A stretch of DNA of 64,000 nt from Qipengyuania sp. JC766 (GTDB lineage Bacteria; Pseudomonadota; Alphaproteobacteria; Sphingomonadales; Sphingomonadaceae). Every line of letters begins with the position of its first letter. Within the stretch, counting starts at the first letter, position 1. The notes beneath the pieces are model-generated. The model did not search any database. It saw only the letters and a program-made list of their open reading frames with translations, and was not told the DNA's origin. The DNA lies in contig NZ_JBFEFL010000001.1 of the NCBI RefSeq assembly GCF_040717445.1, positions 2,056,001-2,120,000 on the forward strand, given 5' to 3'. Below, in pieces: positions 1-6,029 of this stretch. A program made the translations under genes and the position numbers.

Positions 1-153
1 GACAACATCAAGCTGACGAAGTCGGACAGCATGGACGATATGCACCACTTCATCGCCATGAGCGATGTCGAGAAGATCGACGAAAACCGCGTCGTCCTCA
101 AGCAGGGCGCGCGCATCCCGGAAGGGCTCGGCAACAAGGCCAGCGCTTCGTAA
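1..153 (+). CDS. DUF2171-type protein, C-terminal end (partial)
   Basis: This is the last 50 codons of a gene that begins outside the window; frame 1 runs open to a TAA at 151-153. The visible tail contains KLTKSDSMDDMHHFIAMSDV and then a valine/lysine strand (RVVLKQ). That layout is the second half of the small beta-rich DUF2171 domain, where a 'K-L-T-K-x-D ... H-H-(Y/F)-I' segment precedes the last strand. Members are often stress-associated or PRC-barrel-like, but no biochemical role is established. A strong hairpin terminator follows 40 bases later. Family assignment rests on one half-domain, so it is moderate. Confidence 0.6.
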   Translation, partial: DNIKLTKSDSMDDMHHFIAMSDVEKIDENRVVLKQGARIPEGLGNKASAS

Positions 154-194
154 GGCGACACACGAAATTCGCTCCGGTCCATGGACGGGAGCAA

Positions 195-240
195 AGAGGA
201 ACCCGGCACTGCCACATGGCGCTGCCGGGTTCTCTTGTGT
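195..240. terminator. bidirectional intrinsic terminator
   Basis: A perfect 10-bp inverted repeat (GAACCCGGCA at 199-208, TGCCGGGTTC at 223-232) has an extra partial AAAGAG/CTCTT extension, so a U-rich tail is read in both directions. It lies between the convergent DUF2171 gene and the nrdA/beta-helix unit and can serve both. Confidence 0.8.
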
Positions 241-274
241 GAAATCCTAAATTTCTGGAGAGGATCGTCCTAGC

Positions 275-712
275 TTAGAAAATTCCTCCAAAGATCTGAA
301 TTGCTAGAGACGCGACGGAGGATGATGATCCTGCGAGATTTATAAGGTCCACGTAAGCGGACCTATTTTTTGTTTTTGAGCCGCCCTGAGAGATCGCCTC
401 AATCATCTTGAGGCAGGCGTTTTTATCGGACACGGAAAGGTTCGAGGCGTTGAGAGCAGTCTCAAACTCCTCTCGAATACGACTTCGAGCTTCCGGATTC
501 ACCGAATAGTGATCATTATTATCTACAACAGCATCTGAGAGAAACAATTTCGAATTAGATGCTTTAACACCAAAATCTTCATTATCTTTGATCGTGGCGC
601 GATTGAAAGAGGCAAATGAATTCTTGAGGATGACACCACCACCCCGATTGCCCGTGATTTTCGCACCATCAGCGATCACATAGCAACCATCTTCGATGAT
701 CATACCAACCAT
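275..712 (-). CDS. AT-rich hypothetical protein with right-handed beta-helix repeats
   Basis: This is a 145-residue protein of unknown function. Residues about 8-65 show repeating short strands and turns (for example ITGNRGGGVILKN, ATIKDNEDFGV, DAVVDNN), as in parallel beta-helix (pectate-lyase-like) folds. Residues about 70-145 look helical and end in a hydrophobic segment. No signal peptide is seen. The start at 712 has a good ribosome site (AGAGGAA, 7-base gap) placed right on the nrdA stop, so the gene is probably co-transcribed with nrdA and ends before the bidirectional terminator. The stretch is clearly richer in A+T, with AAT/AAA/ATT codons, than every neighbour, which suggests recent acquisition. 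It could be a fragment of a larger beta-helix protein. A real gene is likely; no function is assigned. Confidence 0.6.
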   Translation of the reverse strand: MVGMIIEDGCYVIADGAKITGNRGGGVILKNSFASFNRATIKDNEDFGVKASNSKLFLSDAVVDNNDHYSVNPEARSRIREEFETALNASNLSVSDKNACLKMIEAISQGGSKTKNRSAYVDLINLAGSSSSVASLAIQIFGGIF

Positions 713-724
713 TCTTTATTTCCT

Positions 725-2758
725 CTACTGGCAGCTCAGGCATTCCTCGTAATCGGTCTGCTCGCCGGCAGCGGCGCTCAGTTCGATCTTGGTCGCCTCG
801 GCCGTGTTGTCGGCTTCCACGCCGCCGGCAAAGCCTGCCCGCTGCACCGATTTCGAGCGCAGGTAGTAGAGCGACTTGATGTTCTTCTCCCACGCCTGGA
901 AGTGGAGCATCATCAGGTCCCACTTGTCGACGTCGGCCGGGATGAAGAGGTTGAGCGACTGCGCCTGGTCGATGAAGGGCGCGCGGTCGGCCGCGAATTC
1001 GAGCAGGTAGCGCTGGTCGATCTCGAAGCTGGTCTTGAAGACCGCCTTTTCCTCCGGCGTCAGGAAGTCGAGGTGCTGGACCGACCCCCCCTTCTCCAGG
1101 ATGGAGTTCCAGACATTGGTGCTGTCCTTGGACTTCTTCGCCAGCACCTTTTCCAGATAGCGGTTCTTGACCACGAAGCTGCCCGACAACGTCTTGTGGG
1201 TGTAGATGTTGGCCGGGATCGGTTCGATGCAGGCGCTGGTGCCGCCGCAGATGATGCTGATGCTGGCCGTCGGCGCGATCGCGGTCTTGCAGGAGAAGCG
1301 CTCCATCGCGCCCATTTCCTCCGCATCCGGGCACGGCCCGCGCTCCTGCGCCAGCACCATGCTCGCCTCTTCCGCCTTGGCCGCGATGTGCTTGAACATT
1401 TTCAGGTTCCACACCTTGGCCATCGTGCCTTCCAGCGGCAGGTTCTTGGCCTGCAGGAAGGAGTGGAAGCCCATCACGCCCAGCCCCACGCTGCGTTCGC
1501 GCGCAGCGGAATACTTGGCGCGCGCCATCTCGTCCGGGGCACGGTCGATATAGTCCTGCAGCACGTTGTCGAGGAAGCGCATGATGTCCTCGATGAACTG
1601 CTTGTCCGTGTTCCACTCGTCCCAGGTTTCCAGGTTGAGCGAGGACAGGCAGCACACGGCCGTGCGATCGTTGCCGAGGTGGTCGATGCCCGTCGGCAGG
1701 GTGATTTCGGAACACAGGTTGGAGGTGGAAACCTTCAGGCCCAGGTCGCGATGATGCTTGGGCATCATGCGGTTCACCGTGTCGGAAAACACGATGTAGG
1801 GCTCGCCCGTGGCAAGGCGCGTTTCGACCAGCTTCTGGAACAGGCTGCGCGCGTCCACTTCGCCGCGCACGCTGCCGTCGCGCGGGCTCTTGAGCTCGAA
1901 CTTCTCGCCCGCGCGCACCGCTTCCATGAATTCGTCGGTCAGCAGCACGCCGTGGTGCAGGTTCAGCGCCTTGCGATTGAAATCGCCCGACGGTTTGCGG
2001 ATTTCGAGGAATTCCTCGATTTCCGGATGGCTGACGTCGATGTAGCAGGCGGCCGATCCGCGGCGCAAGCTGCCCTGGCTGATCGCCAGCGTCAGGCTGT
2101 CCATCACGCGTACGAAGGGGATGATGCCGCTGGTCTTGCCGTTGAGGCCGACCGGTTCGCCGATGCCGCGCACATTGCCCCAGTAGGTGCCGATGCCGCC
2201 GCCCTTGGAAGCCAGCCAGACGTTCTCGTTCCAGGTGCCGACAATGCCTTCCAGGCTGTCCTCGACACTGTTGAGATAGCAGCTGATCGGCAAGCCGCGC
2301 GTGGTGCCGCCATTGGACAGCACCGGCGTCGCGGGCATGAACCAGAGCCGGGAAATGTAATCGTACAGGCGCTGCGCATGCTCCGCATCGTCGGCGTAGG
2401 AATCGGCGACGCGCGCGAACAGGTCCTGGTAAGTTTCCTTCGGCAGCAGGTATCGGTCGCGCAGCGTTTCCTTGCCGAAATCAGTCAGCTTGTCGTCACG
2501 CGAGGGATCGGTCGTGATCGTGAAGCGGCGCGGCAGCACGGTCTTGCTGTCCGGCTTGGCCGCAACGGCCGCCTTCGCCACTTCCGCCATGGCGGATGCG
2601 GTCGCGGTGGTCAGCGCATCGGTGCCTTCGTCTGTCTTTTCCATGCTCACGGCAGCCTTGTCCTGCGATCCGGCGGTGGTGCGCGCGGGTCGTTCGGTTA
2701 CATCGGTATCCGGCGTTTCCACATCCATCGCTGCGTCGTCTCCAGCCTTGAAATCCAT
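725..2758 (-). CDS. nrdA: ribonucleoside-diphosphate reductase, large (alpha) subunit
   Basis: This is the catalytic subunit of class I ribonucleotide reductase, which makes deoxynucleotides with the NrdB radical subunit. Visible family marks are WFMPATPVLSNGG, the substrate-site segment SNLCSEITLP with its thiyl-radical cysteine, GGTSACIEPIPANIY, and a C-terminal redox pair (ECLSCQ) for thioredoxin or glutaredoxin. The catalytic domain starts near residue 75. Before it lies an Ala/Asp/Thr-rich low-complexity stretch rather than a recognisable ATP-cone, so overall dATP control may sit elsewhere. The start chosen is the ATG at 2758; an ATG at 2770 is also possible. Neither has a strong ribosome site. 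nrdB is not adjacent; the beta-helix gene follows instead. A LexA-like box and GANTC sites lie upstream. Confidence 0.93.
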   Translation of the reverse strand: MDFKAGDDAAMDVETPDTDVTERPARTTAGSQDKAAVSMEKTDEGTDALTTATASAMAEVAKAAVAAKPDSKTVLPRRFTITTDPSRDDKLTDFGKETLRDRYLLPKETYQDLFARVADSYADDAEHAQRLYDYISRLWFMPATPVLSNGGTTRGLPISCYLNSVEDSLEGIVGTWNENVWLASKGGGIGTYWGNVRGIGEPVGLNGKTSGIIPFVRVMDSLTLAISQGSLRRGSAACYIDVSHPEIEEFLEIRKPSGDFNRKALNLHHGVLLTDEFMEAVRAGEKFELKSPRDGSVRGEVDARSLFQKLVETRLATGEPYIVFSDTVNRMMPKHHRDLGLKVSTSNLCSEITLPTGIDHLGNDRTAVCCLSSLNLETWDEWNTDKQFIEDIMRFLDNVLQDYIDRAPDEMARAKYSAARERSVGLGVMGFHSFLQAKNLPLEGTMAKVWNLKMFKHIAAKAEEASMVLAQERGPCPDAEEMGAMERFSCKTAIAPTASISIICGGTSACIEPIPANIYTHKTLSGSFVVKNRYLEKVLAKKSKDSTNVWNSILEKGGSVQHLDFLTPEEKAVFKTSFEIDQRYLLEFAADRAPFIDQAQSLNLFIPADVDKWDLMMLHFQAWEKNIKSLYYLRSKSVQRAGFAGGVEADNTAEATKIELSAAAGEQTDYEECLSCQ

Positions 2759-2798
2759 TGCATGCCCCATCCAGACCAACGGGTGCGCACACCCGGGT

Positions 2799-2813
2799 GT
2801 TCCACATTCGTTC
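2799..2813. promoter_or_regulatory. LexA (SOS) box of the alphaproteobacterial type
   Basis: GTTC-N7-GTTC occurs exactly (GTTC at 2799-2802 and 2810-2813). This direct repeat is the known LexA operator form in alphaproteobacteria. It sits 29-55 bases upstream of the two possible nrdA starts, where an operator would act. Binding is inferred, and such an 8-base pattern can occur by chance. Confidence 0.5.
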
Positions 2814-3168
2814 GACTCGCGGGTCGTGTCCCGTCCTAGCCGAAAACGTCCTGGCACCGATGCGAAATCGCTCCCCCGCCGGTCCCCCGTTGCGCCCACA
2901 GCCCTGTCCACACCTGCGGCCCCTTTCCCGTCGCGGCATCGCCGTCGGGCGAGTGGGGCAGCTAGGTCTTGTGGTGTTCGACCTCGACCAACCCCTAGAT
3001 GATGAATCAGAGCGGACTCGCACGCAAGGGGTAAATGCAACGGAAACCATCCGGCGGAGCCTGTGCACAGGGGTGGTCTAATACCCTGATACACCGCGAC
3101 GCGCGGAGCGAGCTTGAGTCGACGAACGCGCAAGAGACAAAATGAAACTGTGAAGAAAAATTTGGTGA

Positions 3169-3197
3169 TTGAATCATTTGAATCAATCGTTGAATCA
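3169..3197 (+). repeat. three copies of TTGAATCA
   Basis: TTGAATCA occurs at 3169-3176, 3178-3185 and 3190-3197, each copy containing a GANTC methylation site. The repeat lies 70-100 bases upstream of the small membrane protein start and may be a methylation-sensitive regulatory element. Confidence 0.6.
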
Positions 3198-3267
3198 GGC
3201 TGTCGCAGCGGCGCAATTTCCGTCCGGTCGGCGCCGCCGACGCAACGGGAAGAGGGGGACAAGATCC

Positions 3268-3510
3268 ATGTTGAACTTTATCGGCGCGCTCATTGCAGGC
3301 CTGATCGTGGGCGGGCTGGCCCGGTGGTTCTATCCGGGCGAAATCGACATGAACTGGCTGGAAACGATCCTGCTCGGCGTGGGCGGATCGCTGCTCGCGG
3401 GGCTCTTCTCCAGCCGCGGCCACCAAGGTTTCCACCGGGCCGGATGCCTTGCCAGCATATTGGGCGCGATGGCGCTGATCTTCATCGGCCGGCTGATCCT
3501 GGCGGGCTAG
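3268..3510 (+). CDS. GlsB/YeaQ/YmgE-family small membrane protein
   Basis: This 80-residue inner-membrane protein has three hydrophobic, glycine-rich segments (IGALIAGLIVGGLARWFYPG, then LLGVGGSLLAGLF, then a last helix ending LIFIGRLILAG). The G-x-I-V-G-(x)-A-R-x-F-x-P-G pattern is typical of the transglycosylase-associated/YeaQ family, which is often stress-induced; its biochemical role is not established. The ATG at 3268 is preceded by AGAGGGGGA. Its TAG overlaps the stop of the convergent hydrolase gene in a shared CTAG. Confidence 0.85.
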   Translation: MLNFIGALIAGLIVGGLARWFYPGEIDMNWLETILLGVGGSLLAGLFSSRGHQGFHRAGCLASILGAMALIFIGRLILAG

Positions 3511-4394
3511 GCAGCGCCCTTCGCATGGGCCGCGATGGCATCGGCTATCTCGTGCGTCAGGGGCTCGGGCAGGTCGTGCCCCCAGCCCGGGATTGTCTTC
3601 AGCTTCGCGCCGGGAATGATGGCGGCCGTGTCGTGCCCGCCTTCCACCGGTACCAGCGGATCGGCCTCTCCGTGCAGGACCAGCGTGGGCACGGTGATAT
3701 CGCGCAGCATGGCGCTCCGGTCCCCGTCATGCAGCACCGCCGCCAGGTGCCGGGTCGGTCCCTCGGCATAGACGCTGCGACGCACATTGGCCGTCACCCG
3801 ATCGCGCAGTTCGTCCTCCTCTGCCGGGTAGCCGGGGCTGCCGATGGTGCGCGCCAGCATCATGCCATGCGCGACCAGCACGTCTTCTTCGGTGCTGTCC
3901 GGCCGCTTGGTCAGCGCATCGAGCGCTTCCTTGCGCGCCGCGGGCAGCTTCGGATTGCCGGTGGTCGAGAAGATCGAGGTGAGCGAAAGGCATCGACCGG
4001 GATATTTTGCCGCGATGTGCTGCGCGATCATGCCGCCCATGCTGCCGCCCACGATATGCGCCCGCTCGATCCCCAGCGCATCCAGCAGGCCCACCCCGTC
4101 CGCGGCCATGTCCGCCATGGTGTATGGCACCTTGGGCCGCAGGCCGATCTTTCCGAGGAGGACCTGCTTCACGGGTGACGGCGGCCTGTGGCCGGTGAAC
4201 TTCTGGCTGAGGCCGACATCGCGATTGTCGTATCGGATGACCCGGAAGCCGTGCGCAACCAGCGCATCGACCAGCGCCATCGGCCACAGCGTCAGCTGCG
4301 CCCCGAAGCCCATGATGAGCAGCATCGCCGGATCGGCGGGATCGCCGTATTCCTCGTATTCCAGCTCGATATCGTTGGCGGTGGTCCGGGGCAT
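3507..4394 (-). CDS. alpha/beta hydrolase
   Basis: This is a 295-residue cytoplasmic alpha/beta-hydrolase-fold enzyme. The nucleophile elbow is GGSMGG (serine near residue 112), the oxyanion region is LLIMGFGAQ, and the C-terminal LVLHGEADPLVP and GWGHDLP segments supply the acid and histidine. The fold class resembles epoxide hydrolase or ester hydrolase relatives; the substrate is unknown. It lies 11 bases downstream of nadB on the same strand and is probably co-transcribed, though a role in NAD synthesis is not implied. Its stop overlaps that of the convergent membrane protein gene. Confidence 0.85.
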   Translation of the reverse strand: MPRTTANDIELEYEEYGDPADPAMLLIMGFGAQLTLWPMALVDALVAHGFRVIRYDNRDVGLSQKFTGHRPPSPVKQVLLGKIGLRPKVPYTMADMAADGVGLLDALGIERAHIVGGSMGGMIAQHIAAKYPGRCLSLTSIFSTTGNPKLPAARKEALDALTKRPDSTEEDVLVAHGMMLARTIGSPGYPAEEDELRDRVTANVRRSVYAEGPTRHLAAVLHDGDRSAMLRDITVPTLVLHGEADPLVPVEGGHDTAAIIPGAKLKTIPGWGHDLPEPLTHEIADAIAAHAKGAA

Positions 4395-4405
4395 CGCAGT
4401 CTCCT

Positions 4406-5995
4406 TCAGGGGACGAGCACGGTATCCTTCGCGACCGGATCGGTCGCGGGATGGTCGAGCGTGTAATGCAGTCCGCGGCTCTCGTGCCGGCGCAGGGCGC
4501 TCTGCACGATGAGGTCCGCCGCCTGCAACAGGTTGCGCAATTCGATCAGGTCGGTCGTGACGCGGAAGCTGCCGTAGTAATCCTCGACCTCCGCCTTCAG
4601 CAGCCGGATGCGGTTGGCGGCCCGCTCCAGCCGCTTGGTGGTGCGCACAATGCCGACATAGTTCCACATGAAACGGCGGATTTCCGTCCAGTTCTGCTTG
4701 ATGACGACTTCCTCGTCCGAATCGGTCACGCGGCTTTCGTCCCATTCGCGGATCGCGGGCGGCTCGGGCAGGTCGTCCCAGCCGTCGAGGATGTCGTTCG
4801 CAGCCGCCTCGCCGAAGACGAAGCATTCGAGCAGGCTGTTCGATGCCAGCCGGTTCGCGCCGTGCAGGCCGCTTTCGGTGCATTCGCCCGCCGCCCACAG
4901 GCCCGGCAGGTCGGTGCGCGCATCGAGACCGACGATCACGCCGCCGCAAGTGTAATGCTGCGCCGGGACGACCGGGATCGGCTGGGTGGTCATGTCGATC
5001 CCCAGGCCGGACAGCTTCTCGTCGATCGTGGGGAAATGCTCGCGCACGAATTCGGGGGGCTGGTGACTGATGTCGAGATGGACGCAGTCGAGACCGAAAC
5101 GCTTGATCTCCGCATCGATCGCGCGGGCGACGACATCGCGCGGGGCGAGTTCCATTCGCTCCGGATCGTAGAATTCCATGAACCGCTTGCCGGTGCGCGG
5201 GTTGATCAGCCGCCCGCCTTCCCCGCGCACAGCCTCCGTGATGAGGAAGTTCTTGACGTCCAAATTGTAGAGGCAGGTCGGGTGGAACTGCATCATCTCC
5301 ATGTTGGAGACCCGCGCACCCGCCCGCCATGCCATGGCGATGCCGTCGCCGGTCGCGCCGCGCGGGGCCGTGCTGAACTGGTAGACGCGGCCTGCCCCGC
5401 CTGCCGCCAGAACGGTGGCGCGCGCGACATGGGCTTCCACCCGGCCGGTTTCCTCGTCGAGCGCATAGGCGCCCCAGACGTGACCGTCGCCCGAATAGGT
5501 CCGGCCATGGCGCCCGGTAATCAGGTCGATGCAGCTGCGCCCGGGCAGCAGGGTGATGTTGGGGTTGGCCTTGGCGGCGTTCAGCAACGCTTCCTGCACC
5601 GCCCAGCCGGTCGCATCGTTGACATGCACGATGCGGCGATGACTGTGCCCGCCCTCGCGCGTGAGATGCAGGTCGCCCGCCTCCCGGTTGAACGGGACGC
5701 CGAGCTTAGAGAGCCGATCGATGGAGTCGGGAGCCCGCTCGATCACAAATTCGACCGTCTCCCGGTCGTTGAGCCCGGCGCCCGCGATCATCGTGTCGCG
5801 CACGTGGTTCTCGAACGTGTCGCCTGCATCCAGCACGGCGGCGATCCCGCCTTGCGCCCAAGCAGTGGACCCGCCGGTGAGCGATCCCTTCGCCAGCACC
5901 AGCACGCGCCGGTGCTCCGCCAGCGCCAGTGCGGCCGTCAGTCCGGCCGCGCCGGACCCGATCACCAGTACGTCGTGGGACATAGACAGGGTCAC
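4406..5995 (-). CDS. nadB: L-aspartate oxidase
   Basis: This FAD enzyme oxidises L-aspartate to iminoaspartate, the first step of de novo NAD synthesis. The 529 residues show the N-terminal FAD-binding motif VIGSGAAGLTAA, the GGSTAWAQGGIAAV segment, the fumarate-reductase-family core with HPTCLYN and a substrate-side EAVRGEGGRLIN, and a C-terminal helical domain. The length is normal. The start at 5995 is preferred because GGAG stands about 9 bases upstream; the internal ATG at 5983 lacks one. nadA and nadC are not next to it. It could be confused with a succinate dehydrogenase flavoprotein, but the short length and QGGIAA segment favour NadB. Confidence 0.93.
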   Translation of the reverse strand: MTLSMSHDVLVIGSGAAGLTAALALAEHRRVLVLAKGSLTGGSTAWAQGGIAAVLDAGDTFENHVRDTMIAGAGLNDRETVEFVIERAPDSIDRLSKLGVPFNREAGDLHLTREGGHSHRRIVHVNDATGWAVQEALLNAAKANPNITLLPGRSCIDLITGRHGRTYSGDGHVWGAYALDEETGRVEAHVARATVLAAGGAGRVYQFSTAPRGATGDGIAMAWRAGARVSNMEMMQFHPTCLYNLDVKNFLITEAVRGEGGRLINPRTGKRFMEFYDPERMELAPRDVVARAIDAEIKRFGLDCVHLDISHQPPEFVREHFPTIDEKLSGLGIDMTTQPIPVVPAQHYTCGGVIVGLDARTDLPGLWAAGECTESGLHGANRLASNSLLECFVFGEAAANDILDGWDDLPEPPAIREWDESRVTDSDEEVVIKQNWTEIRRFMWNYVGIVRTTKRLERAANRIRLLKAEVEDYYGSFRVTTDLIELRNLLQAADLIVQSALRRHESRGLHYTLDHPATDPVAKDTVLVP

Positions 5996-6029
5996 GCTTC
6001 GCTCCGTTTGCAGGGAGGGGGTGTTTGTG

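Follow-up and report, generated by a model that had tools for sequence, protein, structure and literature searches.

The locus raises the question of what a small, strikingly AT-rich open reading frame directly behind nrdA is: whether it is a gene, where it came from, how it would be expressed and what its product might do. We analyzed this frame (ORF 275-712, hereafter the ORF) within a window of 64 kb, the whole stretch of DNA under study, and its features are collected in Table 1. The ORF opens with ATG, has no internal stop and is intact. Its G+C content is 0.445 compared with 0.657 for the whole window, of which it is the most AT-rich part, being overlapped by all eight of the lowest-G+C windows listed in a scan of 438-bp windows at 50-bp steps. 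G+C at codon positions 1, 2 and 3 is 0.486, 0.404 and 0.445 in the ORF, versus 0.591, 0.432 and 0.869 in nrdA. An earlier note on this DNA had described a 145-residue ORF behind nrdA with a base composition far from that of its neighbours, and both observations were confirmed.

Table 1. Features at the nrdA end of the window (positions counted from the first base of the window).
Feature	Position	Strand	Basis
DUF2171 gene, 3' end, convergent with the ORF; remainder beyond the window	1..153	+	PF09939, E 7.3e-24
Inverted repeat separating the convergent stops; may be a terminator	199..232		arms 88% complementary
Orphan ORF, 145 aa, 45% G+C, in the frame of nrdA	275..712	-	ORF translation, composition, shuffles
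Predicted helical tail, residues 73-141	290..496	-	single-sequence AlphaFold2, moderate confidence in the tail only
Three 22-residue beta-helix coils, residues 4-69	506..703	-	lag-22 periodicity, PF13229
AGAGGA, ribosome-binding-like, overlapping the nrdA stop codon (725-727)	721..726	-	sequence reading
nrdA, ribonucleotide reductase alpha subunit	725..2770	-	NF006577 equivalog, E 0, 1034 bits

Codon use is of little help in judging coding status because the ORF is AT-rich; scored by the codon use of the family in all six frames, its own frame ranked top by a narrow margin (-4.78 versus -4.88). Stronger coding evidence is provided by a 22-residue repeat in the protein, which reads as three successive coils, MIIEDGCYVIADGAKITGNRGG / GVILKNSFASFNRATIKDNEDF / GVKASNSKLFLSDAVVDNNDHY. 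Self-similarity of residues 1-75 at lag 22 gave a z of 5.29, and the best z over lags 5-39 was reached by none of 1000 shuffles. Regular coils of about 22 residues, as found here, are expected of the Pfam family PF13229 (Beta_helix), and residues 2-74 matched positions 70-145 of that profile at E 7.9e-5 with 22.8 bits, below the curated cut-off of 25.9 bits. When the frame was read beyond its start codon, the score rose to 25.2 bits, still under the cut-off. The beta-helix-like repeats of the earlier note are therefore real at the level of sequence, and the profile search that it proposed returned a family for the coils, albeit under the cut-off, and none for the tail, which alone had no Pfam or NCBIfam match.

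The helical C-terminus proposed in the same note held up as a prediction. Single-sequence AlphaFold2 placed helices at residues 73-89, 94-108, 113-127 and 131-141, within the better part of the model (residues 71-140, ten-residue mean pLDDT 57-78), and the chain ends in a hydrophobic stretch. Structure prediction thus yielded tail helices and, when residues 1-83 were modelled alone, strands throughout the coil region, but from models that were poor (mean pLDDT 54 overall and 55.5 in the 83-residue model). A PDB fold search with the low-confidence whole model had nothing at E <= 0.001 among the best 50 of 181 matches, and the best PDB sequence matches for the whole protein (E 0.25, a phage tail-fibre protein) and for the tail (E 0.068) were both judged to be chance. 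No signal peptide was apparent by eye.

Homologues were sought with a loose filter as the first pass, in family sets (199, then 397 genomes), class and phylum sets that include the genome under study, and in a set from one other class that lacks it; these sets overlap, and the genus-level set consisted of this genome only. None of the 396 other family genomes yielded an orthologue, and neither did 385 class genomes or 398 phylum genomes (own genome in each set), or 258 genomes of the other class. Exact peptide patterns, a method that reaches close relatives only, gave no usable relative in genome contigs and viral contigs. A phage search likewise found no relative, and a plasmid search returned one Halobaculum beta-helix protein at E 0.5, not usable as a relative. 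No ORF of the same build was seen at the 20 non-self loci of the 199-genome family search and 10 loci of the wider searches that were inspected. Three candidates were set aside: a short frame in G036 resembling the end of the tail, judged to be chance; a DNA match on a Qipengyuania citrea plasmid, in which the alignment covers nrdA only; and a 261-aa beta-helix frame in G020, which is complete, stopping 17 bases short of the contig end, and of a different build, without the helical tail. The G020 frame has a Beta_helix match above the cut-off and, by eye, a secretion-like start.

The family (397 genomes), phylum and other-class searches yielded 10 distinct non-self matches. Those in G789 (E 6.1e-5, the top non-self hit in the phylum set), G957 (E 1.9e-4) and G1028 (E 0.0017) are PF13229 proteins by Pfam, the G1058 match is nearly the same protein as that of G1028, and those in G755 and G668 resemble beta-helix repeats by eye. 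The remainder are two penicillin-binding proteins, in G1188 (E 2.1e-4, Pfam-confirmed) and G1319 (E 2.9e-4, alike by sequence), and a protease-like protein (E 0.0153) and a broken frame, both in G614. Single E-values near 1e-4 therefore mean little here, given that penicillin-binding proteins matched equally strongly and a protease-like protein more weakly. The beta-helix proteins among the ten nevertheless favour a beta-helix fold for the product, at a match strength near noise. The three weak matches that the family search contributed all sit in long beta-helix proteins; Pfam confirms two of these, and the third resembles them in sequence. In the PF13229 matches listed for 59 genomes, all other open frames were at least 261 aa long, apart from one of 248 aa that a contig end truncates. 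A free-standing frame as small as this ORF is unusual among these relatives.

These matches bear on the main alternative, that the ORF is a functionless remnant of a larger beta-helix protein, one normally secreted, of which the last coils and the end are left. The ORF begins within a coil and has no N-terminal cap, its nearest beta-helix matches are long proteins, and the G789 match, spanning query residues 12-124, extends weakly into the tail near the end of the long G789 protein, which leans toward a fragment. The missing cap fits a broken fragment and a self-associating mini beta-helix equally well. On the other hand, the frame is intact, its start codon and ribosome site are well placed directly past the nrdA stop, and no long relative convincingly matching both coils and tail was found in the genome sets searched. 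We consider a remnant unlikely on balance, though a serious contender.

Given the position of the ORF, the earlier note had it occupying the place where nrdB might be expected. This is wrong in substance: an intact nrdB (G000:C1:2054386-2055198; PF00268, E 8.6e-78) lies on the same strand just outside the window, some 1.04 kb downstream from the ORF, and a variable gap between nrdA and nrdB is normal in the family. The ORF has no PF00268 match and is not NrdB by family, and replacement of nrdB by it is ruled out. Between the ORF and nrdB are the convergent DUF2171 gene and possibly a plus-strand ORF (L052:11395-11790, between nrdB and DUF2171) that could encode a polar, charged protein of 131 aa; it had no Pfam and no PADLOC match. 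A DUF559 (PF04480) endonuclease-like gene lies beyond nrdB in this genome (L052:8664-9023).

The comparison of the nrdA 3' side in relatives proposed in the earlier note was carried out on 80 family loci (L063-L142), own included, which were chosen by kinship or nrdA similarity and not at random. A search of 199 family genomes located the nrdA end in 190. Six high-ranking ones (G064, G134, G115, G068, G037 and G092) were left out of the 80, all with fragmented-looking contigs or a match near a contig end, and the stretch fetched per locus was 6 to 14 kb (3.9 kb in one case). Same-strand nrdB was present within the fetched stretch in 73 of the 80 loci, at a distance from nrdA of 54-5594 bp, and the gap was at least 1 kb in 57 loci. 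DUF2171 was found in 41 loci, own included. Of the 40 others, 8 have only 15-132 bp between the stops of nrdA and DUF2171, nearly empty sites compared with the 571 bp seen here. Many loci have unrelated small ORFs that start near the nrdA stop, often within about 100 bases. Among those put to Pfam, two were DUF559 endonuclease-like proteins, one was a PilZ protein and one SnoaL-like, and several had no match. Genes in the gaps were called with simple ORF rules, which leaves individual cases uncertain. The gap thus spans anything between 54 bp and more than 5 kb and often contains unrelated small genes, which makes the space behind nrdA a gene-turnover slot in this family. The first 450 nt past nrdA are 17 points under local G+C at our locus, the largest drop of the 80 (the next being 13 and 11), and a 300-bp gap window at least 12 points low occurs in 9 of the 80, own included.

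Several occupants of this region were recorded in their own right. The two DUF559 (PF04480) endonuclease-like genes start about 100 bases behind nrdA in L063 (G002) and L142 (G164). A small lipoprotein-like protein recurs after nrdA in seven loci (L091, L097, L101, L102, L117, L120 and L129), with a common C-terminal part, WHGF.FPFA...GGWYDFGFFLG.TVLGGGS; the one put to Pfam, from L117, had no match. In L077 (G020), the nrdA-nrdB gap is filled, directly behind nrdA, by a 162-aa frame with 43% G+C that resembles our ORF in composition and place, not in sequence; the last 130 residues of this frame had no convincing Pfam match. On the Qipengyuania citrea plasmid NZ_CP098495.1 (L167), nrdA is followed by Ku and ligD on the same strand, and no nrdB is annotated in the stretch read.

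Because no orthologue was found in 396 genomes, the composition is odd and near-empty sites occur in 8 of 40 loci, the ORF was likely gained in its own lineage. It probably belongs to the many unrelated passengers that are gained and lost behind nrdA. The earlier note had called it recently acquired and had named relatives carrying the same gene with normal codon use as evidence against its reading; no such relative appeared among the 396 family genomes. Acquisition, or at least lineage-specific gain, is accordingly the part of that claim that stands, and its recency is probable.

The junction with nrdA suggests how such a passenger could be read. On the minus strand it runs CAG TAG AGG AAA TAA AGA ATG, in which the ribosome-binding-like site overlaps the nrdA stop as the earlier note had claimed, and the start codon of the ORF (710-712) follows 12 nt past that stop, in the nrdA frame and with a second stop (TAA) in between. 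For nrdA itself there are two candidate start codons (ATG at 2756-2758 or 2768-2770). A promoter scan found no sigma-70-like site in positions 1-1200 of the window, which is weak evidence because only 0.9 were expected by chance. Taken with the junction, this makes co-expression of the ORF with nrdA plausible. A terminator scan gave three terminator-like stems, two of them on the plus strand inside the ORF, on the strand opposite to it, with T runs (345-364 and 396-414); these could halt transcription arriving from the DUF2171 gene. The scan missed the inverted repeat between the two convergent stops, and an Rfam search of window positions 1-6000 found no family.

Position and likely translational coupling would also recommend a role in assisting or regulating ribonucleotide reductase, with the ORF retained through joint production with NrdA. 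Relatives, however, have unrelated genes in the same slot, and the orthologue is missing from the 396 other family genomes even though nearly all of the 199 searched for the nrdA end had it. The accessory role floated in the earlier note has no support beyond position, and we give it little credence. About equally improbable is a defence or toxin-type gene, the other role suggested there, for which an AT-rich orphan in a gene-turnover slot with a hydrophobic C-terminus might be taken as a sign; the ORF had no PADLOC match (0 up to E 10) and no PHROG match, and its two small plus-strand neighbours had no PADLOC match either, one of them also lacking a Pfam match, leaving that suggestion unsupported. 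That the ORF is no gene but a chance open frame in an AT-rich spacer is hardly believable: dinucleotide shuffling of bases 238-727 produced an ORF as long or longer 8 times in 5000 and the two plus-strand stems fall within it, but both the 22-residue repeat and the PF13229 match would be unlikely to occur by chance in precisely the longest frame.

The best reading, which we advance tentatively, is that of a recent passenger gene read from the nrdA mRNA and encoding a cytosolic mini beta-helix that probably self-associates. The ORF would be a lineage-specific passenger, probably a recent gain, sitting in a variable slot directly behind nrdA; no promoter-like site of its own was found, and ribosomes on the nrdA mRNA would probably finish at the nrdA stop and re-initiate 12 nt on to translate it. 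Its product would be a cytosolic mini beta-helix with three coils and the helical tail closing one end. Open coil edges tend to pair. As the first coil has no N-terminal cap, we infer that the product pairs or stacks through this open end. The helical, hydrophobic-ended tail would bind a partner or the membrane, and the product may act as an adaptor or scaffold and not as an enzyme.

Were this reading true, the protein would offer a very small and testable beta-helix model that must solve the edge problem with a single cap. The 3' end of an essential core gene could then serve as a turnover slot, in which unrelated small genes gain expression without a promoter of their own. Taken alone, the ORF is one more orphan; the broader interest lies in the recurrent slot behind nrdA.

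Known systems offer partial parallels. The ORF product shares the 22-residue coils of PF13229 right-handed beta-helix proteins and differs by having only three coils, a score under the cut-off, an added helical tail, no signal peptide apparent by eye, and a length of 145 aa as against at least 261 aa in the other frames listed for the 59 relatives (one contig-cut frame apart). Bactofilins are described in PMC12364344 as having a self-polymerising beta-helical core with variable flanking ends. The comparison extends to a possible way of working only: self-association of our protein would be by analogy, it has just three coils from which to assemble, and it had no Pfam match to the bactofilin domain, PF13229 being the only family reported up to E 10 with filters that drop most very weak matches. 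A parallel in place is T4 mobE, a homing endonuclease gene lying between the nrdA and nrdB genes of that phage. PMC2988022 describes it as a cassette that lacks a promoter of its own and depends on promoters upstream of nrdA, with a start codon that touches the nrdA stop. What mobE shares with the ORF is the kind of place and, putatively, the mode of expression, but not the family: the ORF matched no endonuclease family and no HNH or GIY-YIG domain in Pfam, and it lies on a bacterial chromosome, not in a phage. In the boldest version, which we regard as a long shot, the ORF would be the first example seen of a minimal cytosolic beta-helix adaptor class whose members assemble via an uncapped coil, and the slot behind nrdA a standing landing site for promoterless small genes living off nrdA transcription, a bacterial counterpart of the T4 mobE slot.
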